Assembly (NCBI GenBank): GCA_020073305.1
Contig: JAIQFK010000036.1
Location: forward strand, 1 to 61,913
Reading direction: 5' to 3'
DNA: 61,913 nucleotides
From: Terriglobia bacterium
Lineage (GTDB): Bacteria; Acidobacteriota; Terriglobia; Bryobacterales; Bryobacteraceae
Below are positions 10,494-40,664 of the stretch, one piece after another (positions within the stretch are counted from its first letter, which is position 1; each line of letters starts with the position of its first letter). The position numbers and the translations under genes were made by a program. Below the pieces are notes generated by a model, which made no database searches, was not told where the DNA came from, and worked only from the letters and a program-made list of their open reading frames with translations.

Positions 10494-13400
10494 TCACCGC
10501 TGTGAAAGCGCTTCGATCTCGCTCTCCGCGGATTTTCCGGCCAATGCTTTGTCGATGCAATACCTCAGCTTCTCAGCCAAAACCCGGACATTCGGCTCTT
10601 TGGCTATGGTGAGGTGATGGCCGGGCACGTCGACGACATCGACGCCGCCATCCGCTAGCCCGCCCCATCCGAGAAAGTAATCGTCGCGATCTCGGACGTC
10701 ACGCTCGGCGCAGCGAAGGAGCGTAATCCTCCCCGGATAAACGCGCGGGACGTAATTAGCGGCTGCAAACCTGTTCGCTTCGACGATCGTGCTCAGGGGC
10801 ACCGGTATTGGGCGTCCGATCATGCTGTACACTCTGTTGCGGGTTCGCAAACCCTTGGCCCGCAGCCGGCCTTTCAGGTATTCCATCCCTCCCGGTTGGA
10901 AGAACAGCTTTTTCACTCTCAACCTGTAAAGTTCAAGCCGTTCGAGCGGAGTGGGAGGACGCTGCCAATAACGCCATTCAATGGTATCAATGAAGGCCAC
11001 CAGGGCGACTTCTTCCCCCTGCGCCTGGAGTTGCTGAGCTACCTCAAACGCGACCAGGCCGCCAAACGAGTAGCCTCCTAAATAGTAGGGGCCGTGCGGC
11101 TGTACCGACCGGATCGCCGGCAGATAGCTGCTGCCAATGTCTTCCATGCGTGTCAGGAAGGGCTGTTTTCCATCGAGGCCCTGGGGCTGCAGACCGTAGA
11201 CGGGTTGATCCTGCCCCATATATCGCGCGATGGTTTCGAAGGTCAGTACGTTGCCTCCCCAGCCGCCGACAAAGTAAATCGGCGGCCTGGAGCCTTGCGG
11301 TTGGATGGGCACCAGCGACGACCACGGTTTGGGTCCGACCTCCGCCGTCTTGCGTGCTGCCCGGACTACGTTCGCCAACTTCTCGATGGTCCGAGCCTCA
11401 AATAGCGTCGCGAGGCCAAGATCCACATCGTAGGCTTTCTTGATCTTGGCGAAGAGCCTCACGGCCACGAGGGAGTGCCCACCTAGTTCGAAGAAATCGT
11501 CGTGCACTCCGACTCCGTCCGCACCCAGTAACTCCGCCCACCAGCCCGCCAAAGCGTTCTCCATCTCGTCTCGCGGAGCCGTCCCGGCGTTCGCCGGGTC
11601 GGAGCGGGGGGCGCGATCCGGCGGCTTCGCCAGCACCGAGAGTCTTTCCGGATTCAGCCTGGAGACTATAACGTGCGGGCCAATGCCATCTGTGGACAGT
11701 ATCCGCAGCAAAGCCTCGCTGCCTTGCTCGGACGAGATACCCTCTTCGAGCCGCCGATCGAGCAGGCTCGCTTCCGATGAAAACGCCATGCCGGAATGAG
11801 AACTGCCGTTTTTCCGGACGTTGCCGGCCAGGAGGGCCCCCGGATCGTTGATGCGCCGTACCGCGAAACCCTCGATATCGATAAGAGCGCGACCCGCCGC
11901 ATTCATGACGGTGATGTCGAATATTACAATCCCTTGCTGTTCGTTCCCGCCGCGAGGCCGAATGTGGCTATAGCAGACGGCCGGCAGCCGGTCCCAGATC
12001 GTGAGCTTCTCGTAGGAGAACGGCAAGTACAAATCGTCCGAGGATTCATACCCGGGGATCAGATAGAGCGCCGACCCTGTCGCGAGATCGAACAGAGCCG
12101 GGTGAATCCGGCACGTCTCGAGGTCACCACGGAACTCCTCAGCGAGTTCCAGAACGGACAAGGCTTCATTCTTGCCTACACGAATCTGCTTCAGGTTCCT
12201 CCAGCGCGGACCAAACTCGAAATACTTCTCCTGTTTGGTTCGCTGGTTCGCAAAATGGATCTCCCGGCTATTGCACCTCGCGGAGATCTCGTTCAATTTG
12301 AACGTCTCGGCCACTTCGCCAACCGGGTGGCGCGCCTGGCCGAATGCATATTCTTCCCACTGGGCACCATCCGCCGGCTTCGCGATCACGGAAAAGCGGG
12401 AACCTTGCTGGTTCCTTTGGAGAAGAAGCCGGATCTCCCTGGATTCCGCAGACCCCAAGGTGAGAGGCGCCAGAAAGAACACGTCCCGTAGTTCAATCGG
12501 TAGGGAGCTGCCATCAACGGCAGCGGTGGCCATTTCCAGGTATCCTGTGCCCGGAAACAGGGCCTCTCCCCCACGAAAACGATGCTCCTTGAATACCCAG
12601 TGCGTGTCCCAACGATATCGGCCCGAATAAATCGTTTCGTGAAGATTGTCGCTCATGCGGCCACCCAGCACAGGATGTCCCTGTGCTGTTGACCCGTTTT
12701 GATCCAGCGCACCGGCGGCCAGACCGGCGTCGCTCCACAGGCTCCAACTGACCGCGACGGTCAGCCGGCCGTTAGACGCCGCCCTGGCTTGCGCAAAAGC
12801 GTTGAGAAATGCGTTGGCCGCCGCATAGTCGACCTGGCCGACCGGTGGTACCAGTGCGCTGATGGACGAGAACAGGACGAGAAAATCGAGACTCGCGTCC
12901 GCCAGCAACCTGTCGAGCACCAAAGTCCCCTTGACCTTGGGCTCCAGCACCCGTTGAGCTGAGTCCCGCGCCTTGAGTTGAATGAGGCCGTCGTCCAGGA
13001 CACCGGCGGCATGAAAAACACCGTGAAGAGTACCGAACCGCTCCCGCGTCTGTGCGATCACCTCCCGCATCTGTTCGTAATTCGCTACGTCGGCGGCGGC
13101 CACCAGCACCTCAGAACCTGCCTTTTCGAGTTCGCGAACCTTGCGAATCTTCCAGCAAATCGGGTCGTCGGCATCATGCGTGCCAAGAAAAGACTCCCAA
13201 TGCTCGCGGGGGGGCAGGGCTGTGTGGCCCGTGAGCACCAGCCGCGCATGAAACTTTTTCGCCAGACAATCGGCGACAACCATGCCGATGCTGCCCAGGC
13301 CGCCCGTTATGAGATAGACGCCGTTCTCCCTCAAGCGGCTGCGAGCGGGCACGGCGGTGCTTCTTTCGCGCGCAAAGGCGGGGACCCATCGTTCGCGGCC

Positions 13401-16400
13401 GCGGTATGCCACGGTGGACTCGATGCGCGGCTCAGCGAGTTCCTCGAGGATCTGCTCAGGCGCAGACTCATGAGGCAGAGCGATATCGATGTTCTGGCAG
13501 GCGATGCCAGGGAACTCCTTGGGTATCAACTTGCACGGGCCGAGAAGCATCGCGCTTTCAGGATGGAGTACGGCTTCTCCGTTGACGGGTTGCATTCCAC
13601 TGGACACAACCGCCAGCCGGAACTGGCCGATATCCCGCTCGCCAAAGGCCTGCGCCAGAAAGAGCAGACTGTAGAAGCAGAGGTTCTCGGCTTCCTCGAT
13701 GGAATCAAGCCCGGTTGGCGCGCTCACCGCCCACAGATGCAAGATCTTCTGCGGAACGCTGTCCCGCGACACCAAATCGGCGACCAGCGCGTCATAATCC
13801 TCGCGCCGGGCCGGATTGAGCAGGTATTTTCCGTCTTCCAGGCGGGCAAAGTGAGTGCCTCGTTTAACGGTAACCACCTGCTGACCGCTTGCCACCAGCC
13901 GTTCCTGGAGTCGTGTCCCCAACGGGCTGTCGCTGAAGATCAGCCATCGAGACGTACTGACAGGCTGCGCGACCGGGCCCAGTGGCGCGCGCTTCCAGGT
14001 GACGTCGTAGAACCAGTCCGCGGCGACCGACATAGCTGGTTGCGTGACGGCACCGAACGCGTGGGAACCCGGCTCTATCCAATGACGCTGGCGCTCGAAG
14101 GGATATGTGGGCAGAGGCACGCGGTAGCCCGCATCCGGCTCTCGAAATGCTGCCCAGTCTACTTGTGCGCCCTCGATCCACAACCGGCCCAGCGTGTTCA
14201 GCAGGACCTGATAGTCCGAATCCTGTTCCTGAACGTGCCGCAATGACTGGAATACCTTCTGCTGTTTCGGCTTTTGCGGATGCTGTTTGGCGAGCGACGC
14301 CAGTGCAGTTCCAGGTCCCACTTCCAGCAGCAACAGGCCGGGATCGCGGAATAGCTCGTCGAGGCCGTCCGCGAATCGCACCGTTCCACGCAAGTGTTTT
14401 ACCCAATACTCAGGATCTCTGGCATCCGCCGCCCTGACCCAGGTTCCGGTCAAGTTGGAAAGGTAGGGGATTTGAGGATCTTTCAGAGTGAAGCGGCGCA
14501 TCGCCTCGGCGAATGGTTTCAGAATCGGATCGACCATCGCAGAGTGAAATGCATGGGACGTATGCAGGCGTCGATGCGGAATATCGCGGCGGCTCAGATC
14601 CTTTTCCAGCTCGCCGATCGCCGGGGCGGGGCCGGAGACGACGCACTGCCGCGGCCCGTTGATCGCGGCGATCGCAAGACCTTCGCCCAGAGAAGGAAGC
14701 AGTTCGTGTTCCGCCAGCGACACGGCCGTCATGGCGCCCGGCTGCAGGCCCTGCATGAGACGCCCCCGTATCGCCACGATCGCCAATGCATCCTCGAGTG
14801 AGAACACGCCGGCGAGACACGCCGCCACGTATTCGCCGATACTATGGCCGGCCATGGCCTTGGGCCGGATTCCCCACGACATCCACAACTTCGCCAGCGC
14901 GTATTCGATGACGAATAACGCCGGCTGGGTGATCCCGGTTTGGTTGATTTGCTGGCTGGCTCTGTCGGCTTCTTCTTTCGCCGGATAAACTAGCGTACGC
15001 AAATCCAAACCAAGACTGGGGCTCAGCAGCTCCGCGCAAAGATCCACGTGCTCGCGGAAGACCGGCTCTCTGTCGTAGAGTTCGCGCGCCATATCCACGT
15101 ACTGCGAACCTTGCCCGGAGAAGAGAAACGCGATGGAGCGGCCAGCGCCGTCGGCGACGGACGCCGATCCGGAATCCCGGCTTACCAGCGCCTCCCTGGC
15201 TTCTTGCACGCTGCCGCAAACCAGCATCCGGCGATGCCGGAATTCCTTTCGCCCCAACTGGCAGGTGAAGGAAATGTCGGCCAAATTCAGTTCACGGTGG
15301 CTTGCGATGTACGACGCGAGGTTGGAGCTCATGGTGTCCAGCGCACTCGCCGACTTGGCGGATAGCACCACCAACTGCCGGGGCCGCGACCTTCCTGCCC
15401 GAGCGGTTTCGGGGGCTTCTTCCAGGATGACGTGAGCGTTAGTGCCCCCGATTCCCAGCGACGTAACCGCGGCCCGGCGAACTGCGCCGTGCGCCTCCCA
15501 CTCGCGCAATTGGGCATTGACGTAGAACGGGCTGTTGGCAAAATCAATCAGCGGGTTCGGCTTTTCGAAATGCAGGCTCGGCGGCAACTGACGGCCCTTC
15601 AGCGCCAGCACCGTTTTGATGAAGCCCGCCACGCCGGCCGCGCTATCCAGATGGCCAATGTTGGTCTTGACGGATCCAATGGCGCAGTATCCCTTCGCCT
15701 GCGTGCTCTGACGAAAAGCCTGAGTGAGGGCGCTGATCTCGATCGGATCACCAACTCTAGTGCCGGTCCCGTGGGTTTCTACGTAGGAGATGGATGCGGC
15801 GTCCAGGCCGGCAACCGCTAGAGCTTCGGTGATCACTTCGGCTTGCCCGTCAACGCTGGGTGCGAGGTATCCGACCTTTCTGGATCCGTCGTTATTGATG
15901 GCGGAGCCCTTGATGACGGCATGAATTGCGTCACCATCCCGCAGGGCGTCTCTCAAACGCCGCAATACCACCACACCGGCGCCGCTGCCGAAGATGGTCC
16001 CTGTGGAGCGCGCGTCAAATGCGCGGCAGTGCCCATCTTGCGACAGAATCTCCCCTTCCCGGTACATGTACCCGAGCCCGTGTGGGATCTCGATCGTCAC
16101 GCCGCCCGCCAAGGCCATATCGCACTCGTGGTTGAGCAGGCTCTGGCAGGCCATGTGAATCGCCACCAGCGACGTGGAGCAGGCGGTTTGAATGTTGATG
16201 CTCGGCCCACGCAGGTTCAATTGATAAGAGACGCGCGTGGCAAGGACATCTTTGTCGTTCCCGGTCTGCCGGATCAAAAACAACCCCGCACTCTCGACCA
16301 GCTCCCGATTGGTCAGAAGGTTGTACAGCATGTAGGCGCTCATGCCCGATCCGGCATAGACGCCGATAGATCCCTTAAAGGTGTCGGGAACGTGTCCGGC

Positions 16401-16709
16401 GTGCTCCAGGGCCTCCCAGGCGCATTCCAGGAAGTGCCGGTGCTGGGGATCCATAATCGCCGCGTCCTTTGGGCTGAAGCCAAAGAACGAAGCGTCGAAC
16501 AGTTCGATATCCTCGAGGACCGCGCCCGCTTTGATGTAGTTCGGATCGCGAAGGAGATCGGGGCTCGCGCCCGCCGCCCGTAGCTCCTGGTCGCTCAGGG
16601 CCCTGACAGATTCGACAGCTCCGCGCAGATTGTTCCAGAACTCTCCGACGTTGCGAGCGCCCGGAAATCGTCCGGCCATGCCAACCACGGCGATAGCGTT
16701 AGTTTCCAT
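10494..16709 (-). CDS. Single-module type I polyketide synthase KS-AT-KR-DH-ACP-TE
   Basis: The 2071-residue protein has a ketosynthase (1-430; Cys in TACSTS ~177, His in VETHGTGT ~313 and NIGHLDSAAG ~353). The acyltransferase follows (525-835; GHSIGE ~623, HAFHS ~719, the malonyl-CoA pattern). The ketoreductase (about 900-1340) has GGLGSIG, catalytic Ser/Tyr in FSSIS and QVDYAAAN, and the LDD motif of B-type KRs. A dehydratase-like domain (1345-1620) has His in KEHRFRGGEALFPG and Asp in HPALFD; its H-to-P spacing is one residue longer than HxxxGxxxxP. The carrier protein has GGHSL (~1745) and the thioesterase has GYSFGG (~1880). KR before DH is the reverse of the usual order. It is the last gene of the polysaccharide operon, 40 bp after the dehydratase gene. 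No phosphopantetheinyl transferase is in the window, and the product is unknown. Confidence 0.9.
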   Translation of the reverse strand: METNAIAVVGMAGRFPGARNVGEFWNNLRGAVESVRALSDQELRAAGASPDLLRDPNYIKAGAVLEDIELFDASFFGFSPKDAAIMDPQHRHFLECAWEALEHAGHVPDTFKGSIGVYAGSGMSAYMLYNLLTNRELVESAGLFLIRQTGNDKDVLATRVSYQLNLRGPSINIQTACSTSLVAIHMACQSLLNHECDMALAGGVTIEIPHGLGYMYREGEILSQDGHCRAFDARSTGTIFGSGAGVVVLRRLRDALRDGDAIHAVIKGSAINNDGSRKVGYLAPSVDGQAEVITEALAVAGLDAASISYVETHGTGTRVGDPIEISALTQAFRQSTQAKGYCAIGSVKTNIGHLDSAAGVAGFIKTVLALKGRQLPPSLHFEKPNPLIDFANSPFYVNAQLREWEAHGAVRRAAVTSLGIGGTNAHVILEEAPETARAGRSRPRQLVVLSAKSASALDTMSSNLASYIASHRELNLADISFTCQLGRKEFRHRRMLVCGSVQEAREALVSRDSGSASVADGAGRSIAFLFSGQGSQYVDMARELYDREPVFREHVDLCAELLSPSLGLDLRTLVYPAKEEADRASQQINQTGITQPALFVIEYALAKLWMSWGIRPKAMAGHSIGEYVAACLAGVFSLEDALAIVAIRGRLMQGLQPGAMTAVSLAEHELLPSLGEGLAIAAINGPRQCVVSGPAPAIGELEKDLSRRDIPHRRLHTSHAFHSAMVDPILKPFAEAMRRFTLKDPQIPYLSNLTGTWVRAADARDPEYWVKHLRGTVRFADGLDELFRDPGLLLLEVGPGTALASLAKQHPQKPKQQKVFQSLRHVQEQDSDYQVLLNTLGRLWIEGAQVDWAAFREPDAGYRVPLPTYPFERQRHWIEPGSHAFGAVTQPAMSVAADWFYDVTWKRAPLGPVAQPVSTSRWLIFSDSPLGTRLQERLVASGQQVVTVKRGTHFARLEDGKYLLNPARREDYDALVADLVSRDSVPQKILHLWAVSAPTGLDSIEEAENLCFYSLLFLAQAFGERDIGQFRLAVVSSGMQPVNGEAVLHPESAMLLGPCKLIPKEFPGIACQNIDIALPHESAPEQILEELAEPRIESTVAYRGRERWVPAFARERSTAVPARSRLRENGVYLITGGLGSIGMVVADCLAKKFHARLVLTGHTALPPREHWESFLGTHDADDPICWKIRKVRELEKAGSEVLVAAADVANYEQMREVIAQTRERFGTLHGVFHAAGVLDDGLIQLKARDSAQRVLEPKVKGTLVLDRLLADASLDFLVLFSSISALVPPVGQVDYAAANAFLNAFAQARAASNGRLTVAVSWSLWSDAGLAAGALDQNGSTAQGHPVLGGRMSDNLHETIYSGRYRWDTHWVFKEHRFRGGEALFPGTGYLEMATAAVDGSSLPIELRDVFFLAPLTLGSAESREIRLLLQRNQQGSRFSVIAKPADGAQWEEYAFGQARHPVGEVAETFKLNEISARCNSREIHFANQRTKQEKYFEFGPRWRNLKQIRVGKNEALSVLELAEEFRGDLETCRIHPALFDLATGSALYLIPGYESSDDLYLPFSYEKLTIWDRLPAVCYSHIRPRGGNEQQGIVIFDITVMNAAGRALIDIEGFAVRRINDPGALLAGNVRKNGSSHSGMAFSSEASLLDRRLEEGISSEQGSEALLRILSTDGIGPHVIVSRLNPERLSVLAKPPDRAPRSDPANAGTAPRDEMENALAGWWAELLGADGVGVHDDFFELGGHSLVAVRLFAKIKKAYDVDLGLATLFEARTIEKLANVVRAARKTAEVGPKPWSSLVPIQPQGSRPPIYFVGGWGGNVLTFETIARYMGQDQPVYGLQPQGLDGKQPFLTRMEDIGSSYLPAIRSVQPHGPYYLGGYSFGGLVAFEVAQQLQAQGEEVALVAFIDTIEWRYWQRPPTPLERLELYRLRVKKLFFQPGGMEYLKGRLRAKGLRTRNRVYSMIGRPIPVPLSTIVEANRFAAANYVPRVYPGRITLLRCAERDVRDRDDYFLGWGGLADGGVDVVDVPGHHLTIAKEPNVRVLAEKLRYCIDKALAGKSAESEIEALSQR

Positions 16710-16749
16710 AAGTCAGTCAGATTCGGAGTACGAAGATTCAGGCATTTTG

Positions 16750-18648
16750 CTAGCGACCGCCCGCTGCCCGCGAGGCTTCTCGCAACCGAAGGGGCTGCGG
16801 GACCGTTTCCGGGCGGTACTCTGGAACGAGATGCTGGAGCTGAGTGACCACACCATTTTCGTCCCGGAGTTTGACTGCGATTTCAAGCGCGGCGATGGTT
16901 TTGTCCAACCAATCGCCGTTCGCGCGCACACCCTGGAAGATCTTGATTTTCGAGTGGAAGGTCGGCAGGATACTCTCGCCGTCGGTAACCAGCTCCTCGA
17001 AGAGTTTTTCGCCCGGACGCAATCCGGTGTAGCGGATCTCGATTTCTTCATCGGGGATGCGCCCGGAGAGCCGGATCATGTTGCGCGCCAGATCCGCAAT
17101 GCGGATTGGCTCGCCCATGTCGAGCACGAAGATCTCCGAGCCCTTCCCCATGGTGGATGCCTGTAAGACGAGCTGTACCGCTTCGGATATAGTCATGAAG
17201 TAACGGCGCATCTCAGGGTGGGTTACCGTCACCGGGCCGCCCGATGCAATCTGTTCCTGAAATAACGGCACCACGCTTCCATTGCTTCCCAGGACATTGC
17301 CAAAGCGGACCGACACGAACTTCGTCTTCGCCTGCGTTCGCGACGAGACGATCAGTTCCGCCACGCGCTTGCTGGCTCCCATGACATTGATCGGATTCAC
17401 CGCCTTATCCGAGGAAATCATTAAGAAGTCGGAGACCCCGTTTCTCTCCGCGGCGCGCACGACATTGCGCGTGCCGAGAATATTGTTCCGCGCGGCTTCC
17501 AGAATCTGAGACTGCAGCATCGGTACGTGCTTGTACGCCGCCGCATGAAAAATCGAATCGACCGCATGCTGTCTGATGACTTCGTCAACGCGCGGGTAAT
17601 CGCGGATATCTCCGAGTTCTGCCACCACATTCAGTGAAGGATACTTCCGCCGTAACTCCAGATCGATTTTGAATAATTCGCTTTCCGACTGATCCAAGGC
17701 GACCAGCACATCCGGCTCAAAGCGGGCGACCTGGCGGCAAAGTTCCGAGCCGATAGACCCGCCAGCTCCAGTCACCAGAATGGAACGCCGGGCGATGGTG
17801 GAAGAGATCCGGCTCTCATCGAGCTGCACGGGTTCCCGGCCGAGCAGGTCGCCGATTTCCACGTTGCGAATCTGCCCGCTAAGCACTTTCCCGCTCAGCA
17901 GTTCACTCACCCCGGGGATGGTTTTGCAGGGAATCCCGGCAGCTCTGGAGTTGGCCAGCGCTTCCTGCATCTGGTGGCCGGTGGCCGCCGGCATGGCGAT
18001 CAGGATTTCTTCCACCGGATGCGAGTACTTGAAGCGCTCGACGATACGGGCGGCATCTCTTCCAGTACCGAGCAGCGGCACGCCCAGCAGGCTGCCATGA
18101 CGTTTAGCCGGAGCATCATCGAGAAGGCCTAGCACCTCGTAACCCAAGGATGGCTTCGCTTGAATCTCCTTCAGCAGAGTCAGCCCGGCGCGCCCAGCGC
18201 CGTAAATGAGCAGCCCTTTGCGTCCCGGCTTGGACAGCTCGCGGGAGACGGTTTCGTGGTACAGCCGCACGCAGAAGCGCCCGCCGGCGGTGGCCAGAAA
18301 ACAGAGCAGGAAATCGATGAAATAAACGGAGCGCGGAAAGGCAGGTCCGGCGATTGCATTATTCACCAGGGCAAACGCCAGCGAGGCAATGACATTGGCC
18401 GCGACCACTCTGACAAGATCGGGAATCCCGGCGAAGCGCCACCACCCGCGGTCTAGTTCGGCGCGGTTGAACACGATCATCTTAACGAGAAGGGCAATCC
18501 ACAGCGCACGCTGCAACTGGGGCATCTCCGACCGCGGAATCGAAAAATCAAAGCGCAGCAGGAAGGCGGTCACCAGGGTGACGAGGATGACAGCAACTTC
18601 CCACAACGAAATAAACCATCGTCGGTAACGTATGAAGAAGGATTTCAT
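16750..18648 (-). CDS. Membrane-bound nucleotide-sugar 4,6-dehydratase (CapD/WbpM/PglF family)
   Basis: About 632 residues. The N-terminus has four transmembrane helices, then a CoA-binding-like Rossmann domain, then the catalytic SDR domain with GAGGSIGSE, LGDIRD, AAYKHVPM and SSDKAVNP-INVMGASKR. As in WbpM, the usual catalytic Tyr is Met (MGASK). Family members turn UDP-GlcNAc into the UDP-4-keto-6-deoxy sugar, the first step to bacillosamine, QuiNAc or FucNAc. The start is ATG 18648, overlapping the aminotransferase stop by 4 bp (ATGA), rather than the longer frame from 18714. Translational coupling with the aminotransferase fits their sequential use of one intermediate. Confidence 0.88.
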   Translation of the reverse strand: MKSFFIRYRRWFISLWEVAVILVTLVTAFLLRFDFSIPRSEMPQLQRALWIALLVKMIVFNRAELDRGWWRFAGIPDLVRVVAANVIASLAFALVNNAIAGPAFPRSVYFIDFLLCFLATAGGRFCVRLYHETVSRELSKPGRKGLLIYGAGRAGLTLLKEIQAKPSLGYEVLGLLDDAPAKRHGSLLGVPLLGTGRDAARIVERFKYSHPVEEILIAMPAATGHQMQEALANSRAAGIPCKTIPGVSELLSGKVLSGQIRNVEIGDLLGREPVQLDESRISSTIARRSILVTGAGGSIGSELCRQVARFEPDVLVALDQSESELFKIDLELRRKYPSLNVVAELGDIRDYPRVDEVIRQHAVDSIFHAAAYKHVPMLQSQILEAARNNILGTRNVVRAAERNGVSDFLMISSDKAVNPINVMGASKRVAELIVSSRTQAKTKFVSVRFGNVLGSNGSVVPLFQEQIASGGPVTVTHPEMRRYFMTISEAVQLVLQASTMGKGSEIFVLDMGEPIRIADLARNMIRLSGRIPDEEIEIRYTGLRPGEKLFEELVTDGESILPTFHSKIKIFQGVRANGDWLDKTIAALEIAVKLRDENGVVTQLQHLVPEYRPETVPQPLRLREASRAAGGR

Positions 18649-19877: not shown

Positions 19878-20554
19878 TGGGGAAATTTCGACAACGCTTG
19901 GGTTGGGTCAAAGGGCGCCGGTATGAAACTGTAGCGGACGGTCAACAGAATCAGTTTCAAATCCAGCCAGAATGATGCGTGCCGCATGTAACGGACATTC
20001 AGTATCAGCTTGGCGGGCAGGACCGACTCACGGTAATATCGCTCCGGATTGCTTTGCCCGGAAAGCATGTTTTCCTCATCCCGGTAGATGAGGCTGGCGA
20101 GATCCGTGATCCCGGGTTTCACTTCCATGACGGCGAGCCATGCGGGATCCTCGTGCACCACATACTCCGCGATCTCGGGGCGCGGCCCCACCAGGCTCAT
20201 TTCGCCCGTTACCACGTTCCAGAGTTGCGGCAGTTCGTCGATCTTGTACCGCCGGAGAAATCGTCCCGATCGCGTGACCCGCGGATCGTCGCCTGCTGTG
20301 ATACGCGTCCCAGGGGTTTTCAGACGCATGGAACGAAATTTGATCATTCGGAACGGCCGGAAATCGCGGCCGATTCTCTCCTGCACGAAAAGGACAGGCC
20401 ACCCATCGTCTGCCAGAATCACGGCGGCTACTGCCATCAGCACGGGAGAAAGCAACACCAGGCCCAGGGCGCCGGCGACGCGGTCGAACGCCGTCTTAGC
20501 CCATGCGGTCTGGCGCCTGGTCCCCATCCGATCCAGCGTGGCGGTAGTACTCAA
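19874..20554 (-). CDS. Priming sugar-phosphate transferase (PglC/WcaJ family)
   Basis: The 226-residue monotopic membrane protein has a hydrophobic re-entrant helix (about residues 27-48), then QERIGRDFRPFRMIKFRSM, KIDELPQLWNV and VGPRPEIAEYV, the signature of polyprenyl-phosphate phosphoglycosyl transferases. It should place the first sugar phosphate on undecaprenyl phosphate and so start repeat-unit assembly. Being the short PglC-like form without the extra N-terminal helices of WcaJ, and adjacent to PglE- and PglF-like genes, it probably primes with an amino-deoxy sugar. The stop overlaps the next start. Confidence 0.9.
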   Translation of the reverse strand: MSTTATLDRMGTRRQTAWAKTAFDRVAGALGLVLLSPVLMAVAAVILADDGWPVLFVQERIGRDFRPFRMIKFRSMRLKTPGTRITAGDDPRVTRSGRFLRRYKIDELPQLWNVVTGEMSLVGPRPEIAEYVVHEDPAWLAVMEVKPGITDLASLIYRDEENMLSGQSNPERYYRESVLPAKLILNVRYMRHASFWLDLKLILLTVRYSFIPAPFDPTQALSKFPQ

Positions 20555-31588: not shown

Positions 31589-31644
31589 GGGTGGAGTCAC
31601 CCTGCGCGGTTTCGTGTTTTGTGAGCCCGGAGGTCAGGACCCGA

Positions 31645-32922
<1,278 letters not shown>

Positions 32923-32934
32923 CGGGTACCAGCC

Positions 32935-33798
32935 TCAGACCAGGTCGGCAAACGTTCGCTCCATTCGGCGGAAGATGAACAGCCCGCCCACCAACATCAC
33001 CAGCGCCGCCGCCGCAGACCCGGCGATGACAGGCCCGGGCGAGTAATGCGAGTTAAGCATAGACCAGCGGAAGCCCTCCACCACGCCCGCCATCGGGTTC
33101 AAGCCGTAGACAGAGCGCCAGCGCTGGGGCAGAAGGCTGCTGGGGTACACAATCGGCGTCGCGAACATCCAAAACTGAATCAAGAACGGCACGACATACT
33201 TCACATCCCGAAAGTGTACGTTTAACGCAGAAAGCCAAAGCCCTGCTCCCAGCGAAGTGGCCAGGCACAGCAACAGAAACAGGGGCATCCACAGAACTCG
33301 AGGAGTCAAGGCCCACCCATAGTAAAGCTCCATGCCTACCAGGACCACGGTTGCCAGCAGCAGGTCCACAATTCCCGCCAGCGTCGCCCCTATGGGCACT
33401 GCGAGACGTGGAAAATAGACTTTTCGAACCAGGTTCGCATTTCCCACCAGGCTGTCGGAAGCCTGACTCAGGCCGGTGGCGAAGAAGGTCCACGGCACCA
33501 ACGCCGCATAGGTGAAGAGCGGATAAGGAATACCGTCCGACGGCATTTTTGCCAGGCGTCCCAGAAACAAGCTGAAAACCAGCATGGTGCAGAGGGGCTG
33601 CAGAATCGCCCAGGCAGCCCCCAGCGCGGTCTGCTTGTAGCGCACTTTGACATCCCGCCAGACAAGGAAGTACAGCAGCTCGCGATATTCCCACAACTCG
33701 CCCAGACGCAGTGGAGCCCAGCCTTGAGCTGGCCTCAAGCGCAAGACCGTGGTTCCGGCGGTGACGGGCCGGTGAGGAATCTCAACAACCGCACTCAT
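32935..33798 (-). CDS. wzm: ABC polysaccharide exporter permease (Wzm family, ABC-2 type)
   Basis: The 287-residue permease has six transmembrane helices and the ABC-2 layout. The N-terminal amphipathic segment LWEYRELLYFLVWRDVKVRYKQ is split as WEYRELLYFLVWRD and VKVRYKQT, and ALGAAWAILQPL follows; both are the family signature. NPMAGVVEGFRW lies near the C-terminus. It forms the transmembrane channel for lipid-linked glycan export with the Wzt-like ATPase. It lies 15 bp downstream of the BY-kinase gene in the operon. The symbol is by family analogy. Confidence 0.9.
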   Translation of the reverse strand: MSAVVEIPHRPVTAGTTVLRLRPAQGWAPLRLGELWEYRELLYFLVWRDVKVRYKQTALGAAWAILQPLCTMLVFSLFLGRLAKMPSDGIPYPLFTYAALVPWTFFATGLSQASDSLVGNANLVRKVYFPRLAVPIGATLAGIVDLLLATVVLVGMELYYGWALTPRVLWMPLFLLLCLATSLGAGLWLSALNVHFRDVKYVVPFLIQFWMFATPIVYPSSLLPQRWRSVYGLNPMAGVVEGFRWSMLNSHYSPGPVIAGSAAAALVMLVGGLFIFRRMERTFADLV

Positions 33799-33813
33799 GG
33801 TTGCGGAGTCCCT

Positions 33814-36108
33814 TTAGGAAGATCCATTTGCGTAATAAGACTTGTAGTATTTGTGATAGTAGTGATATCCATGCGCATGGGCTGAAGCCGCAGTGGCTGG
33901 GTTCCAATGATTCAGAATAGATCCGAGGACCCGCGCCCCATCTTCGGTGAAGCGCTGCTTGGCCGCCAAGGCACTGTCCCGGGTGGTGAATCCGGACCGC
34001 ACAATCAGGACAACGCCGTCAGCCAGTTGTGCCAGCACGCGTGCATCAGGGAGCAACAACATGGCCGGGGTGTCGATCAGAACGGTATCAAACTCATTCC
34101 GCAACCGGGCTAACAATTCGCGCGTGCGCGTGGAATGAAGCAGGTTGGTGATACTGGCAGCTCCTGGACCGGCCGGAAGAACGTATAAGTCACGGAACTC
34201 GGTTGAGCGCACCAGGGCCTCCAACGGGCAGTCGGCAACCGGGTTGCGTTCTCGCAGAAGATCGCTCAGGCCCCAGCTATTCAGCACATTGAAGATCCCG
34301 TGGATGCGCGGCTTGCGCAGGTCAGCATCGATCAGCAGAACCTTCTGCCCGGTTTCAGCCAGGGCGATCGCCAGATTGCTGGCCACCGTGCTCTTTCCTT
34401 CCGACGGATTCGGGCTGGAGAGTACGATGACACGAGGGCGGTCTCCGTTCTGACCAGAAAGCAGAATGGACGTGACCGCCGACCGGAACGACTCGCCCAC
34501 CAGCGATGACTTATGCAGCCAACTGGCGAGTTCCGTTCGCCGCGTAGCGGGGATGATTCCCAGCTCCGGTATATTCAGACAGAGCGAGGCCTCGCCGGGA
34601 GAGCGCACGCTGCTGTCGGACCGCTCGCGCATCAGGATCACGAACACGCCGACAAACACGCCTCCTAGCAACCCCAAAGAAGAGTTGAGCAGCCAGTTCG
34701 GCCGGTAAGGCAAAAAAGGAGGTTTTGCCGGGTCGACTACGCGAAAATTGCTGGCTCGCATGGCTGCGGTTATGCCTGCCTCCTTCACTTTTTGCAGCAT
34801 GGCCTCATAGAGCTGCCGGTTCGAGTCGACCTCGCGCTTCAGAATACTGTAGTGGATGGCTTTGCCGGCCTGGTCGGAGACCATCTGAGCCTGTGCAGTG
34901 TAATACGTGGAGAGCAGCTTCTCCCGCCGCTCCGCAGACTCGTATTCATTCTTTACGCGCGTGGAGATTTTGGCGTACTCCTTGTTCAGCTCGGCCTCCA
35001 GAGTCGCGATTTGCACTTCCAGACGTTTGACCTTGGGGTGCACCGGCGTGAGCGCGGCGTTCAAGTCCGCCAGTTGCCGCCTCAGGTCCGCGAGCTTGAC
35101 TTGATATTCGCGCAAGGACCCGTCGTCGACAACATCCGGTAATACCTGCGCCTGGGTGTTGGACACGACTTCGTAGCGTGATTGTTTGCCTACGCGGTCG
35201 GCCTGCGCCCTGGAGAGCTCTTCCTGCAGTTGTTTGAGCTTTTCTTCGACGACATTGTCTGTCTCTGACGTGAATAGCAGGCCAGATGCCCGGGCATAGG
35301 CTTGCAGCTCATCCTCGGACCTTTCCAGCTTGGTCTTCATGTCCTGCATCTGCCGCGTAAGCAACTCCCCCGTATTGCGGCTCAACTCCCCGCGAGCTTC
35401 AAAATTCTGCTGCACCGATTCTGCCGTCAAGGTATTGAGAAAATCCGCTGCCTGGCGGGCATCTCCCGCGTCGTAGAAAACTTCTACGATGCGATTCTGC
35501 GGCATCGTGCTGATCTTGAGTCTCTTGAGCGCGCGCGCGACGGTCTGCTCCCGTACATTATCGGCGGAGAGAGGTCCGGGAGTTTTTTGCCAAAAGGCGA
35601 AGAAGCTCGACGGCGGCTCCTGGGGCACTTGGTCCAGTTTCAATTTGGCCACGACCCGCTCGATCAACGACTCACTCTGCAATAACTGCACATGGGTCTG
35701 AATGTCCGCGTCGCGCAACATGGGAGATGTGGCTACCATGCTGACATCCGCCATATTCAGAAAATTGTCGTTAATGGACTGGATCTCAAGTGAAGTCCGT
35801 GCCCGGTAGATCGGTTTCTGCACCAGACTCACGAGGTAACCCGCCAGCATGCCGAGCAAGGCAACTGACAGGACGGTGCCGCGATGGCGCTGTAGAAGCT
35901 GCCAGTATTGCATGAGCCCGGCACGGTCCGCGTCTCCGGGCAAGCCGGAGTTCAGGGTTTCCACCTGTTGGATGCGAACGGCAGAACGCTCTGGAACGCC
36001 GCCAAATCGCTCTTCGACGAAATGGTCGAGCGGCATCAGCCCTCCGTTCTTTTCCGCGCGCCGGCCCTCGTCTGGATTCAAATCTGGAGTCGCAGGGAGA
36101 TTAGTCAT
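33814..36108 (-). CDS. Polysaccharide co-polymerase/BY-kinase (Wzc-like)
   Basis: 764 residues. The N-terminal transmembrane helix is at 77-95. A periplasmic Wzz/coiled-coil region spans about 100-460 with a second helix at 472-492. The cytosolic tyrosine kinase has Walker A PNPSEGKST (566-574), A' VLLIDAD (590-596) and Walker B VLIDTP (676-681). The tail is tyrosine-rich: Tyr 748, 750, 751, 754, 755, 758 and 759, interleaved with His and Lys. Such proteins control chain length and export through cycles of tail autophosphorylation and oligomerisation. It sits between the Wza-like and Wzm-like genes. A separate Wzb-like phosphatase is not visible. Confidence 0.92.
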   Translation of the reverse strand: MTNLPATPDLNPDEGRRAEKNGGLMPLDHFVEERFGGVPERSAVRIQQVETLNSGLPGDADRAGLMQYWQLLQRHRGTVLSVALLGMLAGYLVSLVQKPIYRARTSLEIQSINDNFLNMADVSMVATSPMLRDADIQTHVQLLQSESLIERVVAKLKLDQVPQEPPSSFFAFWQKTPGPLSADNVREQTVARALKRLKISTMPQNRIVEVFYDAGDARQAADFLNTLTAESVQQNFEARGELSRNTGELLTRQMQDMKTKLERSEDELQAYARASGLLFTSETDNVVEEKLKQLQEELSRAQADRVGKQSRYEVVSNTQAQVLPDVVDDGSLREYQVKLADLRRQLADLNAALTPVHPKVKRLEVQIATLEAELNKEYAKISTRVKNEYESAERREKLLSTYYTAQAQMVSDQAGKAIHYSILKREVDSNRQLYEAMLQKVKEAGITAAMRASNFRVVDPAKPPFLPYRPNWLLNSSLGLLGGVFVGVFVILMRERSDSSVRSPGEASLCLNIPELGIIPATRRTELASWLHKSSLVGESFRSAVTSILLSGQNGDRPRVIVLSSPNPSEGKSTVASNLAIALAETGQKVLLIDADLRKPRIHGIFNVLNSWGLSDLLRERNPVADCPLEALVRSTEFRDLYVLPAGPGAASITNLLHSTRTRELLARLRNEFDTVLIDTPAMLLLPDARVLAQLADGVVLIVRSGFTTRDSALAAKQRFTEDGARVLGSILNHWNPATAASAHAHGYHYYHKYYKSYYANGSS

Positions 36109-36128
36109 GGCTTGTCCTTAGCGGAGGT

Positions 36129-37118
36129 CTAATGGCCGTATATCGCAACACCCGCTCCAACCTGGCCGGCCATCCGGATCGCCGTCTCAACGGTGGTCAG
36201 AGCCACGAATTTGCCGGTACTGTTAGGAATGAACAAGATGTCGTCCGGCCGCAGGGGCACGTCAGAGGCTTTGCCCTCGAGAATTCTCTTCACGTTCAGC
36301 GAGATTTCCGCGCGGGCTTCGTTACCGCTGGCGGTGCGTAAGACTTTGGCGCGCTGCCCTGCCGCCGTGCGGCTCATTCCTCCCGCCAGCGAGAGGGCCT
36401 GCAGAACAGTCAGACTCTCGCGCTCATTGAGAACGAAGCCGCCCGCCTTGGGAACCTCCCCAATGACGTAGACGATATCGGCGCGTGGCACCGAGATCAC
36501 GTCGTTGGGCCGAATCAGAATATTCTTTTCGGGATGACGGGCGTCGAGAATTTCCTTCAAAGGCACTTCTCCGACGGTGAATTTGCCGGTCGGATCCTTT
36601 TGTGCATCCGGCAAGGGAATCTGACCCCATTCCGCGGAGCGGGTGATCTTCACGCTGTAGCCGGCATCCTCGCGCATACCTCCCGCCAGCGAGAGCATTT
36701 CAAGAAGGGTCTTCCGACCCTGCAACTGAACGACTCCCGGTAACTTCACCGCGCCGATCACTGACACAGGCTGGCTTCGGAACTCGGTGATTGTCACGGA
36801 TACGTGAGCGTCTTGAACGTAGGTCTTCAGCCGCTTCGTAAGTTCCGCTTCAAGCTGCTCCACGGTCAAGCCGGCCGCCTGAACGGGTCCCAACATGGGG
36901 AGGGTGACATAGCCGCTGGGGTTGATCCGAAATGGTTTGTTTGAAATTTCGTCAGCGTCCAGCGCCAAAAGAGTAATTTGATCGTCGGGGCCGAGCGCGT
37001 AAACCGATCGCAAGCGATCGGCATTGTCGGTTGTGGGCGATTGCCCGAAGCCTGCGGTTAACGTCATCGCGAGCAACGCAACCGGAAAACCCGCAAGCTT
37101 AAGACCCGTGAACATCAT
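36129..37118 (-). CDS. Polysaccharide export outer-membrane protein (Wza/OPX family) with SLBB domains
   Basis: The 329-residue protein has a signal peptide (LKLAGFPVALLAMTLTAGFG). A poly-export domain (about 38-115) has YALGPDDQITL, FRINPSGYVTLPMLG and VSVTITEF. Two SLBB domains follow: one from VSVIGAVKLPGVVQL and one from VYVIGEVPKAGGFVL. No lipobox cysteine is seen, unlike Escherichia Wza, so it may not be a lipoprotein. It should form the outer-membrane portal that docks on the BY-kinase/co-polymerase encoded 20 bp downstream. AAGGAAGAAG precedes the start; ATG 37115 is an alternative. Confidence 0.9.
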   Translation of the reverse strand: MMFTGLKLAGFPVALLAMTLTAGFGQSPTTDNADRLRSVYALGPDDQITLLALDADEISNKPFRINPSGYVTLPMLGPVQAAGLTVEQLEAELTKRLKTYVQDAHVSVTITEFRSQPVSVIGAVKLPGVVQLQGRKTLLEMLSLAGGMREDAGYSVKITRSAEWGQIPLPDAQKDPTGKFTVGEVPLKEILDARHPEKNILIRPNDVISVPRADIVYVIGEVPKAGGFVLNERESLTVLQALSLAGGMSRTAAGQRAKVLRTASGNEARAEISLNVKRILEGKASDVPLRPDDILFIPNSTGKFVALTTVETAIRMAGQVGAGVAIYGH

Positions 37119-37132
37119 ATCAATCTTCTTCC

Positions 37133-37229
37133 TTGGCCTCTCAACAGATCTGCCGTTTCAAAAGTCGTTTTTGAAATCGTACAACCCGAAGAGTGAAGCC
37201 CGTAAGCGGTAACGAACTGGAGAGGCCAA
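37133..37229 (-). promoter_or_regulatory. Nested inverted repeats in the leader between the antiterminator and wza-like genes
   Basis: TTGGCCTCTC (37133-37142) is the exact complement of GAGAGGCCAA (37220-37229), a 10-bp stem enclosing 77 bases. Inside it, TTTCAAAA (37156-37163) pairs with TTTTGAAA (37169-37176) as a tight 8-bp hairpin. The structure fills most of the 125-bp gap between the NusG-like gene and the exporter gene. It would be transcribed in the operon mRNA. It could be an antitermination, pausing or processing site; the function is inferred. Confidence 0.5.
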
Positions 37230-37243
37230 CTATGCACGTTGGT

Positions 37244-37789
37244 TCAAATCTCTGCGGCGGCCGTAGCTGGTAGATAGGCGCTGTCAGGCGCCACCCAGCA
37301 CCGATCGATTTCGACGGCCACCGAACGCTGCAGCAAGGTGACCGACACCACCACCCGGTACTGACCCTTGAAGTCCAACAAAAGTCCTTCTAAACCGGCA
37401 AGCGGGCCGTGTTCCAGCCGCACGAACTGCCCGATTCGAAGGAAAGGCCACGGTTGTGAGGGAAGGTGGGATTGAACGATCGCCTGCAAGGCACTGATTT
37501 CCTCATCCGCCACCGGCAGCGGTGTTTTGCCGATCCCCAAAATGGATACGACACCTGGCGTCGTCAGAGCGGTCAGCGATTGGCGACGATCGAACCGGCA
37601 AAAAACGTAACGCGGAAAAAGCGGCAGTTCCAACCGCTTGACGCGATCCGACCAGCGTCGAAGAGCCACGTATCGCGGGCAGAAGTCCTCAAGTCCTTTG
37701 GAACGCAAGGCCTCGGCCACCGTCTGCTCGTGTCTTGGCTTGACCTGCAACGCAAACCAGGATGGGTTCAGCTTTAAGGATTCTGGCAC
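37244..37789 (-). CDS. NusG/RfaH/UpxY-like specialised transcription antiterminator
   Basis: The 181-residue protein has an NGN domain (about 8-105) with WFALQVKPRHEQTVAEAL, PLFPRYVFCRFD and VVSILGIGK. A KOW domain follows (about 118-170) with GQFVRLEHGPLAGLEGLLLD, here split as RIGQFVRLEHGPLAG and LEGLLLD. It is divergent from housekeeping NusG and lies first in a polysaccharide operon, the position of UpxY, LoaP and RfaH-type proteins. These bind paused RNA polymerase and suppress termination over long operons. A 27-kb operon downstream fits that job. The start is GTG 37789; no strong ribosome binding site is evident. Two ops-like elements lie just upstream. Confidence 0.88.
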   Translation of the reverse strand: MPESLKLNPSWFALQVKPRHEQTVAEALRSKGLEDFCPRYVALRRWSDRVKRLELPLFPRYVFCRFDRRQSLTALTTPGVVSILGIGKTPLPVADEEISALQAIVQSHLPSQPWPFLRIGQFVRLEHGPLAGLEGLLLDFKGQYRVVVSVTLLQRSVAVEIDRCWVAPDSAYLPATAAAEI

Positions 37790-38351
37790 GCGAACTCACA
37801 ACTCTCCGGCTACCGCGGCCTCGCCTCTTGGATCGGCGCGCTACCGCGATCTGAGCCCCACCGATGGGAGCTCACAGCACTCGCTGGAGGCGACGAGTGA
37901 GCAATCTTCGCTCCAAAGGCAAAGTCCAGTTTCCCCTGTAAATTGTTTGCGTTATGCTGCCCCCAGAAGGAAGTATCCTTCCAATACTTTTACCTTTTTT
38001 CAGAATCTGATGAATTTTTTACCAACCAGAGATAAATCGCGAGATGGATCTTCTCTGCAGATATTCCGTTTCAGCCCGCCGGATCTGTGGACCCACAATT
38101 GCTTGTCGTATCGAACCGTTATTTCCAATATCTCAGCCAATGATTCGTAGGGTGTCCAACAAGGATTGCGGTCCCGGGGGTATTGCCAGGTTCTGTTTCA
38201 GGAGGCTTTTTTTGGAGCAGGTGCACCGTTGGTTCGACGTGAAGCGGCGGCCAGTCGCCGTCACACTACGCGAGGCCAATGAGCCTTTTCTCGAGACGAG
38301 GATTGATCTATTTCTGGAGAATACACGGCTCACCCGCAAGGGAGCTGCACG
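37790..38351. promoter_or_regulatory. 562-bp divergent control region between the polysaccharide operon and the NRPS gene
   Basis: No convincing gene is present. The minus strand carries CGCGGTAGC twice, at 37809-37817 and 37840-37848. Overlapping inverted repeats occupy 37870-37902: GCTCAC with GTGAGC, and CACTCG with CGAGTG, which share bases and so exclude each other. An operator-like repeat AAGTAT-N7-ATACTT lies at 37970-37988. An AT-rich stretch with TTTTTTACC runs over 37985-38025. A plus-strand frame (38044-38355) ends in a GTGA overlap with the NRPS start but resembles nothing. Promoters for both directions must lie here, but I could not place them with confidence. Confidence 0.5.
37809..37848 (-). 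promoter_or_regulatory. Two ops-like elements (CGCGGTAGC) upstream of the antiterminator gene
   Basis: The strings are CGCGGTAGCGCG (37837-37848) and CGCGGTAGCCGG (37806-37817), read on the minus strand. The RfaH target ops is GGCGGTAGCGTG, and both copies contain its GCGGTAGC core. They lie 20 and 51 bp before the start codon of a RfaH/UpxY-like gene, on the transcribed strand. The match is by eye and the acidobacterial consensus is unknown. Confidence 0.4.
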
Positions 38352-40664
38352 GTGACGGAGAAGTACACCCCACTGGAAATCTGTCTTGATGAAGAAGCCA
38401 CGTCTGCGATTCACGCTGTCTGCCGGCGGGAACAGCTGACGCCAGACACTGTGGTGGCAGGCGCCTGGGTGCTGTTGTTGAGCCGGCACAGTGGGATGGA
38501 AGAAGTGAGTCTGGGCGAGACAGTGTTTCCCATTGCGGAGCAGTTGCCCACGCGCGTTTGGCTGAAAACGTTGCCCAATCCCCACGGGGTCGAGTGCCAG
38601 TCGGCAGGAGCGAAGCTGAAAGTAGTGTTTTCTCACGGCCCCCAGACGCTGCGCGATGACTCCGTTTCACGCTTTGCGCCATACCTGAATAAGCTGCTGC
38701 AGAGTATGCCAGGGCGGCTGGACGAGCCGGTTTCTTCGCTGGAGATGCTGCCAGACGATGAGCGAAAGCGGGTGCTGTTTGACTGGAACCAGACCGCGGC
38801 GGAGTATCCTGCCGCCGAGTGCATTCACGAGCAGTTTGATAGACAGGTGACTCGAACTCCCGATGCGACGGCTGTGACGTTCCGGGATTGTAGCATGAGC
38901 TATCGCGAACTCGACGAGCGGGCGAACCAGCTCGCCCGATACCTGGTGAGGCTCGGGGTGGGACCGGATACGCTCGTCGGGATCTGCATGGAGCGCTCAC
39001 TGGAACTGATGGTCGGGTTATTGGCGATTCTCAAGGCGGGCGGGGCGTACGTACCACTGGACCCAGCGTATCCCGCACGGCGCATGGAAATGGTGCTGGA
39101 GGATGCGCAGCCGCCGGTGGTCCTGACGCAAGAGCGGCTGGCCGGGCGAATCTCGACGCAGACGCATGTGGTCTCAGTCGATAGCGACCGGACCGGTGTT
39201 GCCGGGGAGAGTCGGGAACGGCTTGCACGGCGTGCCGGACCGGAGAATCTTGCTTACGTTATTTACACGTCGGGCTCGACGGGAACCCCCAAAGGCGTCA
39301 TGATCGAGCACCGGAACGTAATCAGTTTCTTCACGGCGATGGATCACGTGATCGGTGCTCACTGGCCTGGCGTATGGCTGGCCGTGACCAGCATCTCGTT
39401 CGATATTTCGGTCCTGGAATTATTCTGGACTCTGGCGCGGGGATTCCAGGTAGTGCTGCAGAGCGACGAGGCGGCACGCGATGCCGACGGCGAATACTCG
39501 ATGGCGCGGCAGATCCGGCGTCACGGGGTTACACACCTGCAGTGCACTCCCTCGCTGGCCCGGATGCTGGTGTCGGACCGGCACTCTTATGAGGCCCTGG
39601 GATGCTTGCAGAAGCTCCTACTAGGCGGCGAAGCGTTGCCGGTTTCGTTGGTGGAGCAGATCCGCGGGGCCGTAACCGGCGAGATTTATAACATGTACGG
39701 CCCGACGGAAACCACGATCTGGTCCACCACACACCGGGTGGAGGAGGCAGACGGGTCGATTCCTATCGGACGGCCCATCGCCAACACGCAGACTTACATC
39801 CTCGATCGCTTCCTGCGGCCGGTTCCCGAAGGTGCAATCGGCGAGCTTTTCATTGCCGGAGCTGGCGTGGTGCGAGGATACCTGAAACGCCCCGAGCTGA
39901 CGGCGGAGCGTTTTCTACCCAATCCTTTTTGCCCTGATACGGACAGCCGGATGTACCGGACGGGTGACCTGGTGCGCTACCGGCCGGATGGCGCGATTGA
40001 ATATCTCGGGCGCGTGGACTTCCAGGTTAAGATCCGTGGCTTTCGCGTTGAGCTGGGTGAAATCGAGGCGGTGATCGAGCGCTATCCAGGGGTGCGGCAG
40101 GCGGTGGCCACGGTACATCATGAGGAGAAAGCCGGGGATAAGCGGCTTATCGCCTATGTTGTCCTTGACCAGCCTGATTCTCCAAGCGCCACGGGCATGC
40201 GGGCTTATCTGCGGGATCAACTACCCGAATACATGGTGCCGAGCGCTTTCGTGCGCCTGGAAAAGATGCCGCTCACCGACAACGGCAAAATCAACCGGAA
40301 TGCACTTCCGGCACTCAACGGCAACGAGATGCCCTTGGAATCGGTGTATGAGGCTCCGCAAGAAGAACTGCAACAGACCATCGCGAATATCTGGAGTGAG
40401 GCCCTGGATGTGGAACGGGTGAGCATCCACGACAACTTCTTCGATCTGGGGGCTCATTCTCTGCTAGTCGCAGAGGTGCATCTCAAGCTCCGGGAGGCCC
40501 TGCGCAAGGACATCCCGCTGGTGGCGATGTTCCGCCATCCCACGGTGAGCTCGCTGGCCAAGTACCTCAGCCAGGGGGACGAGGACAGCTCGGGGCTCAG
40601 GCGCAGCGCGGATCGCGCACGCGCGCGACAGGACTCGCTCCAGCGACGAGTCGGTCGCCGCTAA
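38352..40664 (+). CDS. NRPS adenylation-carrier module (A-PCP) with vestigial condensation domain
   Basis: 770 residues. Residues 1-150 resemble two pieces of a condensation domain (RREQLTPDTVVAGAWVLLLSR and VSSLEMLPDDE, each typical of C-domain regions), but HHxxxDG and most of the domain are missing. The adenylation domain (about 155-655) has A3 YTSGSTGTPKG, A5 YNMYGPTETT, A7 MYRTGDLVR and A10 NGKIN with Lys646. The carrier (665-740) has DLGAHSL with Ser703. Selectivity positions read approximately D-I-L-Q-L-G-M-I-W-K, which resembles glycine codes I remember, so glycine is a tentative prediction. There is no thioesterase. A GTG start is supported by GGGAG about 8 bp upstream. It probably loads an amino acid for a partner enzyme. 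Confidence 0.85.
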   Translation: MTEKYTPLEICLDEEATSAIHAVCRREQLTPDTVVAGAWVLLLSRHSGMEEVSLGETVFPIAEQLPTRVWLKTLPNPHGVECQSAGAKLKVVFSHGPQTLRDDSVSRFAPYLNKLLQSMPGRLDEPVSSLEMLPDDERKRVLFDWNQTAAEYPAAECIHEQFDRQVTRTPDATAVTFRDCSMSYRELDERANQLARYLVRLGVGPDTLVGICMERSLELMVGLLAILKAGGAYVPLDPAYPARRMEMVLEDAQPPVVLTQERLAGRISTQTHVVSVDSDRTGVAGESRERLARRAGPENLAYVIYTSGSTGTPKGVMIEHRNVISFFTAMDHVIGAHWPGVWLAVTSISFDISVLELFWTLARGFQVVLQSDEAARDADGEYSMARQIRRHGVTHLQCTPSLARMLVSDRHSYEALGCLQKLLLGGEALPVSLVEQIRGAVTGEIYNMYGPTETTIWSTTHRVEEADGSIPIGRPIANTQTYILDRFLRPVPEGAIGELFIAGAGVVRGYLKRPELTAERFLPNPFCPDTDSRMYRTGDLVRYRPDGAIEYLGRVDFQVKIRGFRVELGEIEAVIERYPGVRQAVATVHHEEKAGDKRLIAYVVLDQPDSPSATGMRAYLRDQLPEYMVPSAFVRLEKMPLTDNGKINRNALPALNGNEMPLESVYEAPQEELQQTIANIWSEALDVERVSIHDNFFDLGAHSLLVAEVHLKLREALRKDIPLVAMFRHPTVSSLAKYLSQGDEDSSGLRRSADRARARQDSLQRRVGRR

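Follow-up and report, generated by a model that had tools for sequence, protein, structure and literature searches.

A UpxY-family exopolysaccharide operon bracketed by a divergent A-PCP gene and a type I polyketide synthase gene in a Terriglobia bacterium: a possible assembly line for modification of an exported glycan

The window, by which we mean the whole stretch of 61,913 nucleotides that was analysed, is the entire contig C51 of the genome (G000; 6.98 Mb in 51 contigs) of a Terriglobia bacterium. A comparison of RpoB, for which 12 of 14 genomes gave a match, places the host in the Acidobacteriota, with identities of 71-78% to three named MAGs of this phylum and of 53-62% to four named genomes from other phyla. 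It includes an unbroken run of minus-strand genes from 37789 down to 10494, which the first-pass annotation had put at about 19 genes and which by open reading frames and Pfam comprises 18. The gene order given there, from a NusG-like gene through Wza-, Wzc-, Wzm- and Wzt-like genes, glycosyltransferases and amino-sugar genes to a polyketide synthase (PKS), is borne out by the same analysis, as is, by Pfam, the divergent A-PCP gene at the operon head. Ten of the 17 junctions between consecutive genes are gaps of 9 to 69 bp, and the gap between the CapD-type gene and the PKS gene is 40 bp. Two junctions are wider (125 bp between the NusG and Wza genes, and 197 bp between a GT4 gene and that for a beta-helix-like protein) and five are overlaps, in part because some start codons are uncertain.

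The first gene of the operon (37244-37789; Pfam NusG) encodes a NusG paralogue of the UpxY family. It is followed by genes for a Wza-like export protein (36129-37118; Poly_export and SLBB), a Wzc-like chain-length regulator or BY-kinase (33814-36108; Wzz, GNVR and AAA_31, with TIGR01007 above its cut-off), a Wzm-like ABC-2 permease (32935-33798; Pfam) and a Wzt-like ATPase of 425 aa with a long C-terminal extension (31645-32922; ABC_tran). There are six glycosyltransferase genes by Pfam, three for family 2 enzymes (30629-31600, 26256-27251 and 20586-21698) and three for group 1 enzymes (29426-30619, 24967-26286 and 23948-25102), the start codons being uncertain for those at 26256, 24967 and 23948. 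The family 2 enzyme at 20586-21698 has relatives of 54-57% identity in genomes G034, G015, G016, G028 and G039. Among these genes are one for a methyltransferase (27115-27837; Pfam) and one for a membrane protein (27859-29412) that is hydrophobic by eye, has no family match in Pfam or NCBIfam and may be Wzy- or ligase-like; a Wzy profile built from loci of the Alloyangia family, to which we return below, had no match in the window. The later part of the operon has genes for an initiating sugar transferase (19874-20554; Bac_transf), a DegT-family sugar aminotransferase (18645-19877; Pfam) and a CapD/WbpM-type nucleotide-sugar 4,6-dehydratase (16750-18714; Polysacc_synt_2; start codon uncertain), and the PKS gene (10494-16709) is last. 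No acyltransferase family other than that in the PKS was matched by Pfam among the operon proteins, and no phosphopantetheinyl transferase (PPTase) was matched by Pfam among the 40 window proteins scanned.

A secreted beta-helix-like protein is also encoded in the operon (21768-23750). It has a DUF1565-like stretch (a weak Pfam match) and, by eye, dockerin-like repeats at its C-terminus, and in a congener (G001) a gene for a Cohesin-domain protein adjoins the A-PCP gene. On the other side of the A-PCP gene, 41524-54456 includes genes for two apiosidase-like glycoside hydrolases, a large outer-membrane barrel, an AraC regulator and an S15 peptidase, and is probably a separate sugar-uptake locus. 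Beyond the PKS gene, 9222-10247 encodes a protein of 341 aa that has no family match and is 58% identical to a protein of genome G010 encoded some 10 kb away from another PKS gene.

The PKS has the domain order KS-AT-KR-DH-ACP-TE by Pfam, with KR preceding DH and no ER domain matched. The residues that we take to be catalytic (KS C177, H313 and H353; AT S623; KR S1281, Y1295 and N1299; DH H1376 and D1541; ACP S1746; TE S1881, D1908 and H2032) cover all six domains, and are invariant in an alignment of the window protein with four full-length relatives. The KS motif is DPQHR. There are nine KS-family matches in the genome, and only that in the window is in a long PKS frame, the other eight being in frames of 389-516 aa; the window PKS is the only type I PKS of this genome.

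The divergent gene (38352-40664, plus strand; Pfam) starts 562 bp from the antiterminator gene and encodes an A-PCP protein of 770 aa, which would be a loading module. Its first 150 or so residues look by eye like the remnant of a condensation domain, without the HHxxxDG motif. The code of the A domain, extracted by script at nine positions, is DILQLGMIW. The available text of PMC12283262 gives DILQLGMIWK for four glycine A domains that carry a MOX domain, and the window code agrees with it over the nine positions, although the window protein lacks the monooxygenase inserted in the A domain of those modules. The MOX insert is present in a related gene on contig C28 of the same genome and in an Alloyangia gene. 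The C28 locus (L047:11704-18987) has this second A-PCP gene, in which the insert is a luciferase-like monooxygenase, adjoining genes for a carbamoyltransferase and a C-PCP-TE protein.

With regard to transcription, the proposal that the operon has its own antiterminator is supported in that the first gene product scores 109.9 bits with the NCBIfam UpxY model (NF033644; cut-off 100), and falls below the NCBIfam cut-offs for RfaH, LoaP and NusG. A Pfam NusG search of the genome gave two matches only, on contigs C18 and C51, each with a Wza homologue adjoining, and a housekeeping nusG gene was not found by this search of the 99.9% complete assembly. The first-pass annotation had pointed to an internal promoter and terminator as features that could set the PKS apart from the operon, and none was predicted between the CapD-type gene and the PKS gene. 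There is a terminator-like hairpin directly 3' of the PKS stop codon (10422-10403). Hairpins as a class are not enriched (16 observed and 14.3 expected from shuffled sequences), the scan for promoters and terminators in 9000-24000 was close to shuffled expectation, and the 24 terminator-like sites in 24000-41600, against 16.8 expected (sd 4.4), are not decisive. An Rfam scan of 9000-42000 gave no match at gathering scores.

We considered whether the contig might be chimeric or foreign and rejected this, as the GC content (0.59-0.61) and tetranucleotide profiles of blocks of the window are similar to those of the other contigs. The tetranucleotide correlation with the genome itself is 0.87-0.96 for the four blocks of at least 6 kb, and 0.69 for the 2.3-kb A-PCP block, which is too short to judge; such composition evidence for a common genome is weak, because the window also correlates at 0.75-0.94 with eight loci from other genomes.

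The A-PCP and PKS genes are at opposite ends of the glycan genes, and it had been suggested that the A-PCP loads the PKS. Their belonging together is favoured by the adjacency and common code of their homologues in other genomes, the presence of only one type I PKS in the genome, and a profile of the A-PCP C-terminus. In two genomes of the same class and another family (G067 and G276) genes for a carbamoyltransferase, an A-PCP and the PKS are adjacent on one strand. The A-PCPs have the same DILQLGMIW code as the window protein and are 53-54% identical to it, and in G276 the PKS frame extends into C-A-PCP-TE.

In the case of the C-terminus, NRPS proteins encoded before a PKS gene tend to have a basic tail at the end, but the net charge of the tail was rejected as a discriminator, as the classes overlap, and a profile was used instead. 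This was built from 42 such pre-KS proteins (45 collected, with three near-duplicates dropped), using the C-terminal 60 residues of each. The end of the window A-PCP scores 62.3 bits, within the range of 10.3-80.3 for left-out pre-KS ends, whereas the range is -1.0 to 15.8 for 11 control ends found before a C domain; one of the 42 pre-KS ends is within the control range. Training without G067, G276 and G001 gives the window protein 62.7 bits and the controls at most 14.9. With only the last 32 residues the direction is the same and the effect much weaker, the window protein scoring 4.7 bits and the controls at most 1.4, while of 40 KS-type ends 34 reach at least 4.7 and four fall inside the control range; the carrier-domain end therefore contributes much of the 60-residue score. 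The A-PCP end of G001 scores 39.3 bits in the 60-residue profile. Two Alloyangia loci (L063 and L111) score 10.2 and 10.5 and so do not behave as PCP-to-KS ends in this profile, which means that the docking pattern stops short of Alloyangia. Docking of the window A-PCP to the window PKS is thus partly supported by sequence, and taken together with the adjacency in G067 and G276 and the absence of another type I PKS it indicates that the two proteins are most likely one split assembly line, the two halves of which flank the glycan operon.

The same PKS domain order was looked for among the best 80 of 174 confirmed matches in a scan of named genomes, which represent 79 loci. It is present in a Luteitalea MAG (L051), a gammaproteobacterial MAG (L056), the Alloyangia loci L063 and L111 (in L111 split over two frames) and a member of the Planctomycetia (L097). 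A profile of the DH-ACP-TE part (A2), used on 396 sampled genomes of the phylum of the window with at most two candidates scored per genome, gave full-length matches in the genome itself and in G067, N-terminal partial matches in G276 and G305, and some match, mostly to ACP-TE, in 74 of the 396. In the Alloyangia family (Roseobacteraceae, or Rhodobacteraceae broadly) there is a PKS match in 110 of 295 sampled genomes, near-complete in 101 by hand count.

A tree of the KS-AT part was made with 51 rows chosen by hand from 155, with the labels for glycan genes also set by hand. It has an 18-row clade (support 100/99) that consists of a window group and its sister group. The window, G001, G067 and G276 group together (100/98), and the sister group comprises G034, L097, L051 and 11 rows from the Alloyangia family. 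L056 is outside the clade despite its domain order. The nearest kin of the window PKS are thus the rows without glycan genes and not the glycan-linked rows, although for G001 this label is based on contigs of 7.2 kb and 4.5 kb only.

The first-pass annotation called for a search for co-occurrence of the PKS with glycan export genes, and this gave co-occurrence in many cases, but not as a fixed rule. In genome G034 this PKS and further NRPS and PKS genes are amid relatives of the NusG (48% identity to the window protein), CapD (50%), DegT (62%), GT2 (54%), Wza, Wzc, Wzm (64%) and Wzt (54%) genes. We also examined 40 loci of the Alloyangia family, chosen by length of contig. All 40 have the PKS and a relative of the FT-A-MOX-PCP NRPS, and in 38 of them (all except L171 and L187) there is a GT2 gene between the two, a position occupied in the window by the whole glycan operon. 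A glycosyltransferase gene together with genes for Wzx, Wzy, Wzz/Wzc or similar is present at 36 of the 40, and at none of 16 control regions, taken from 16 of these genomes at a distance of 200-300 kb, nor at any of four loci with other assembly lines. Several of the glycan markers came from L063, itself an Alloyangia locus. With these removed and coverage lowered from 0.4 to 0.3, 38 of the 40 loci have glycosyltransferases and 22 have Wz-type genes, with neither in the 16 control regions and a match at one of the four other assembly-line loci; one of those four has a CapD-type gene. Since the loci share ancestry, the pattern amounts to conserved synteny and not to 38 independent events. Of the codes, 31 of 39 strings read DILQ[MFYL]GMIW, and the others deviate from this at one or two positions or were partly read. 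L171 and L187, where the PKS/NRPS pair is present but no glycosyltransferase was found, each have by eye a glutamine-synthetase-like gene nearby.

In G067 and G276 the A-PCP and PKS genes are next to a carbamoyltransferase gene, and the glycan operon is absent from the stretches read, which is the kind of alternative neighbourhood that the first-pass annotation named as evidence against its proposal. BLAST of their flanks gave no glycosyltransferase or Wz-type match, and Pfam scans of ten flank ORFs gave one GH94-like protein and two FkbM methyltransferases. BLAST of the flanks searched for L051 and L097 likewise gave no glycan homologue, and there is no CapD gene in the 4.4 kb searched upstream of the G001 PKS gene. 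Operons related to the glycan operon are in turn found on their own: those of G015, G016, G006 and G004 all have Wza, Wzc and DegT homologues (the last at 58-65%), three of them also have CapD, and no PKS match was found in the stretches read; there is also none in G028 (GT2, Wza and Wzc) or on two short contigs of G039 (DegT, CapD, Wzm, Wzt and GT2). Other assembly lines do lie beside glycan genes. In G036 a NusG-Wzy-GT2-Wza-...-Wzx series is followed about 90 bp on, on the same strand, by different KS-AT and NRPS genes; in G003 DegT, epimerase, AsnB, Wzy and FemAB genes precede NRPS/PKS genes; and in G010, a member of the same family (L136:8575-17898 and L137:801-3569), Wza, Wzc, Bac_transf and GT4 genes are directly before A-PCP genes. 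By eye, among the matches listed for 61 relatives, there are at least five cases of an assembly-line locus with Wza within about 30 kb (G000:C51, G034:C127, G036:C10, G010:C1 near 4.88 Mb and G035:C67), and many assembly-line loci without Wza nearby. The PKS/A-PCP and glycan modules thus each exist alone, and are joined in more than one lineage.

We suggest that the A-PCP would activate glycine and hand it to the PKS, which would add one or a few malonyl units, and reduce and dehydrate the chain, and that a short unsaturated aminoacyl product would then be released or transferred by the TE domain. Expression of the PKS would come at the end of an exopolysaccharide operon driven by UpxY, directly after the amino-sugar genes. 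The product would most likely be used on the glycan, where the free amine of a 4-amino sugar is one candidate site, or on its carrier. The gene layout, the domains, the conservation of the candidate catalytic residues and of the A-domain code, and the recurrence with glycan genes are observed; we infer glycine and malonyl units as substrates, the number of rounds, co-transcription and transfer to the sugar. The proposal that the PKS product decorates the exported glycan gains from the recurrence with glycan genes in G034 and the Alloyangia family, which makes a recurrent glycan-polyketide link plausible, and loses from G067, G276 and the operons without a PKS, as the association is not fixed. 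Because the PKS gene is so tightly joined to the operon behind the amino-sugar genes, a role on the glycan or its carrier is the likeliest of the readings, though less likely than not, and we put it at roughly 0.43.

Ranking close behind is the possibility that the product of the A-PCP and PKS is a small metabolite in its own right, and that the pair was brought beside a common type of exopolysaccharide operon and shares only its transcript or neighbourhood. The pair with a carbamoyltransferase gene in place of the glycan operon in G067 and G276, the glycan operons without a PKS in G015, G016, G006 and G004, and the sister position of the window PKS to rows without glycan genes all fit such a product, while the tight operon position of the PKS gene and the presence of the same PKS clade amid glycan genes in G034 and at 36 of 40 Alloyangia-family loci speak against it. 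It is unlikely that the modification is in the reverse direction, with the glycosyltransferases and exporters serving to glycosylate and secrete an aminoacyl-polyketide. The glycosyltransferase gene between PKS and NRPS at 38 of 40 Alloyangia-family loci would suit this, as would the four-gene cluster of NRPS, PKS, glycosyltransferase and PPTase outlined in the available text of PMC4337385. The window, with its whole polymer export set of Wza, Wzc, Wzm and Wzt, has more than a small glycoside would need. A role in making a lipid anchor or carrier has been suggested for RkpA and WcbR, and PKSs of that type have an AONS-like gene as partner. Although PKS genes are described in capsule clusters (PMC3908369, in the part available), such a role is highly improbable for the window PKS, as loading by a glycine-type A-PCP is ill-suited to a fatty anchor, there is no ER domain for saturated chains, the KS motif is DPQHR and not the DPQQR of WcbR and RkpA, and the AONS-like partner is missing, the only Aminotran_1_2 match among the window proteins scanned being weak and secondary, to a class-III aminotransferase.

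The common PKS clade, the glycine-type code and the complete glycan machinery make it a testable question whether there is an acyl group on the surface polysaccharide; if there is, an assembly line would be carrying out a glycan modification in place of a simple acyltransferase. A further reading, less likely than not, is a family across Acidobacteriota, Planctomycetota and the Alloyangia family in which glycine-primed single-module PKSs make aminoacyl cargo for exported polysaccharides, with the window as the fullest form, having a complete UpxY-controlled operon between the assembly-line halves.

The statement in the first-pass annotation that no such system had been described needs correction, as both the capsule-cluster PKS genes (PMC3908369) and a roseobacter cluster (PMC4337385) are in print. 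With regard to regulation, LoaP genes are described in the available text of PMC12691694 beside secondary-metabolite or polysaccharide operons, and the window shares with such LoaP- or UpxY-controlled long operons a specialised NusG paralogue beside an operon of one of these kinds; it differs in having both kinds of gene in one operon, under predicted UpxY control. The capsule PKS genes rkpA and wcbR (PMC3908369) resemble that of the window in being type I PKS genes within a capsule or exopolysaccharide export cluster, and differ in the DPQQR motif given there for their products, a comparison based on the published description, and the window PKS has in addition an A-PCP partner with a glycine-type code. 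The carbamoyltransferase/A-PCP/PKS genes of G067 and G276 encode, with G001, the closest PKSs in the tree and have the identical A-domain code, but have the carbamoyltransferase gene, in the stretches read, where the window has the glycan operon.

The roseobacter cluster is described in the available part of PMC4337385 as comprising NRPS, PKS, glycosyltransferase and PPTase genes, as present in 28 of 57 genomes and as having an uncharacterised product; we found no later characterisation in the open literature searched, for which coverage was limited. We infer from gene content that our Alloyangia-family loci are this cluster, and from locus numbers it is probably Inhi_1972-1974 of Phaeobacter inhibens T5 (PMC4062626, in the part available). 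The window shares with it the PKS architecture and a supported PKS clade, an A-PCP partner with a DILQ-type code, and glycan genes between or beside the two. It differs in that its A-PCP lacks both the formyltransferase and the inserted luciferase-like monooxygenase that are present in L063, in that its PKS and A-PCP genes are divergent with 17 glycan-operon genes between them, and in that no PPTase was matched among the 40 window proteins scanned. The kind of system is thus already known, and what is new is the bracket arrangement and the link across phyla to an orphan roseobacter cluster. As the acidobacterial assembly line has as its close relative a widespread cluster of marine bacteria for which no product is reported, it provides a lead to the product of that cluster.
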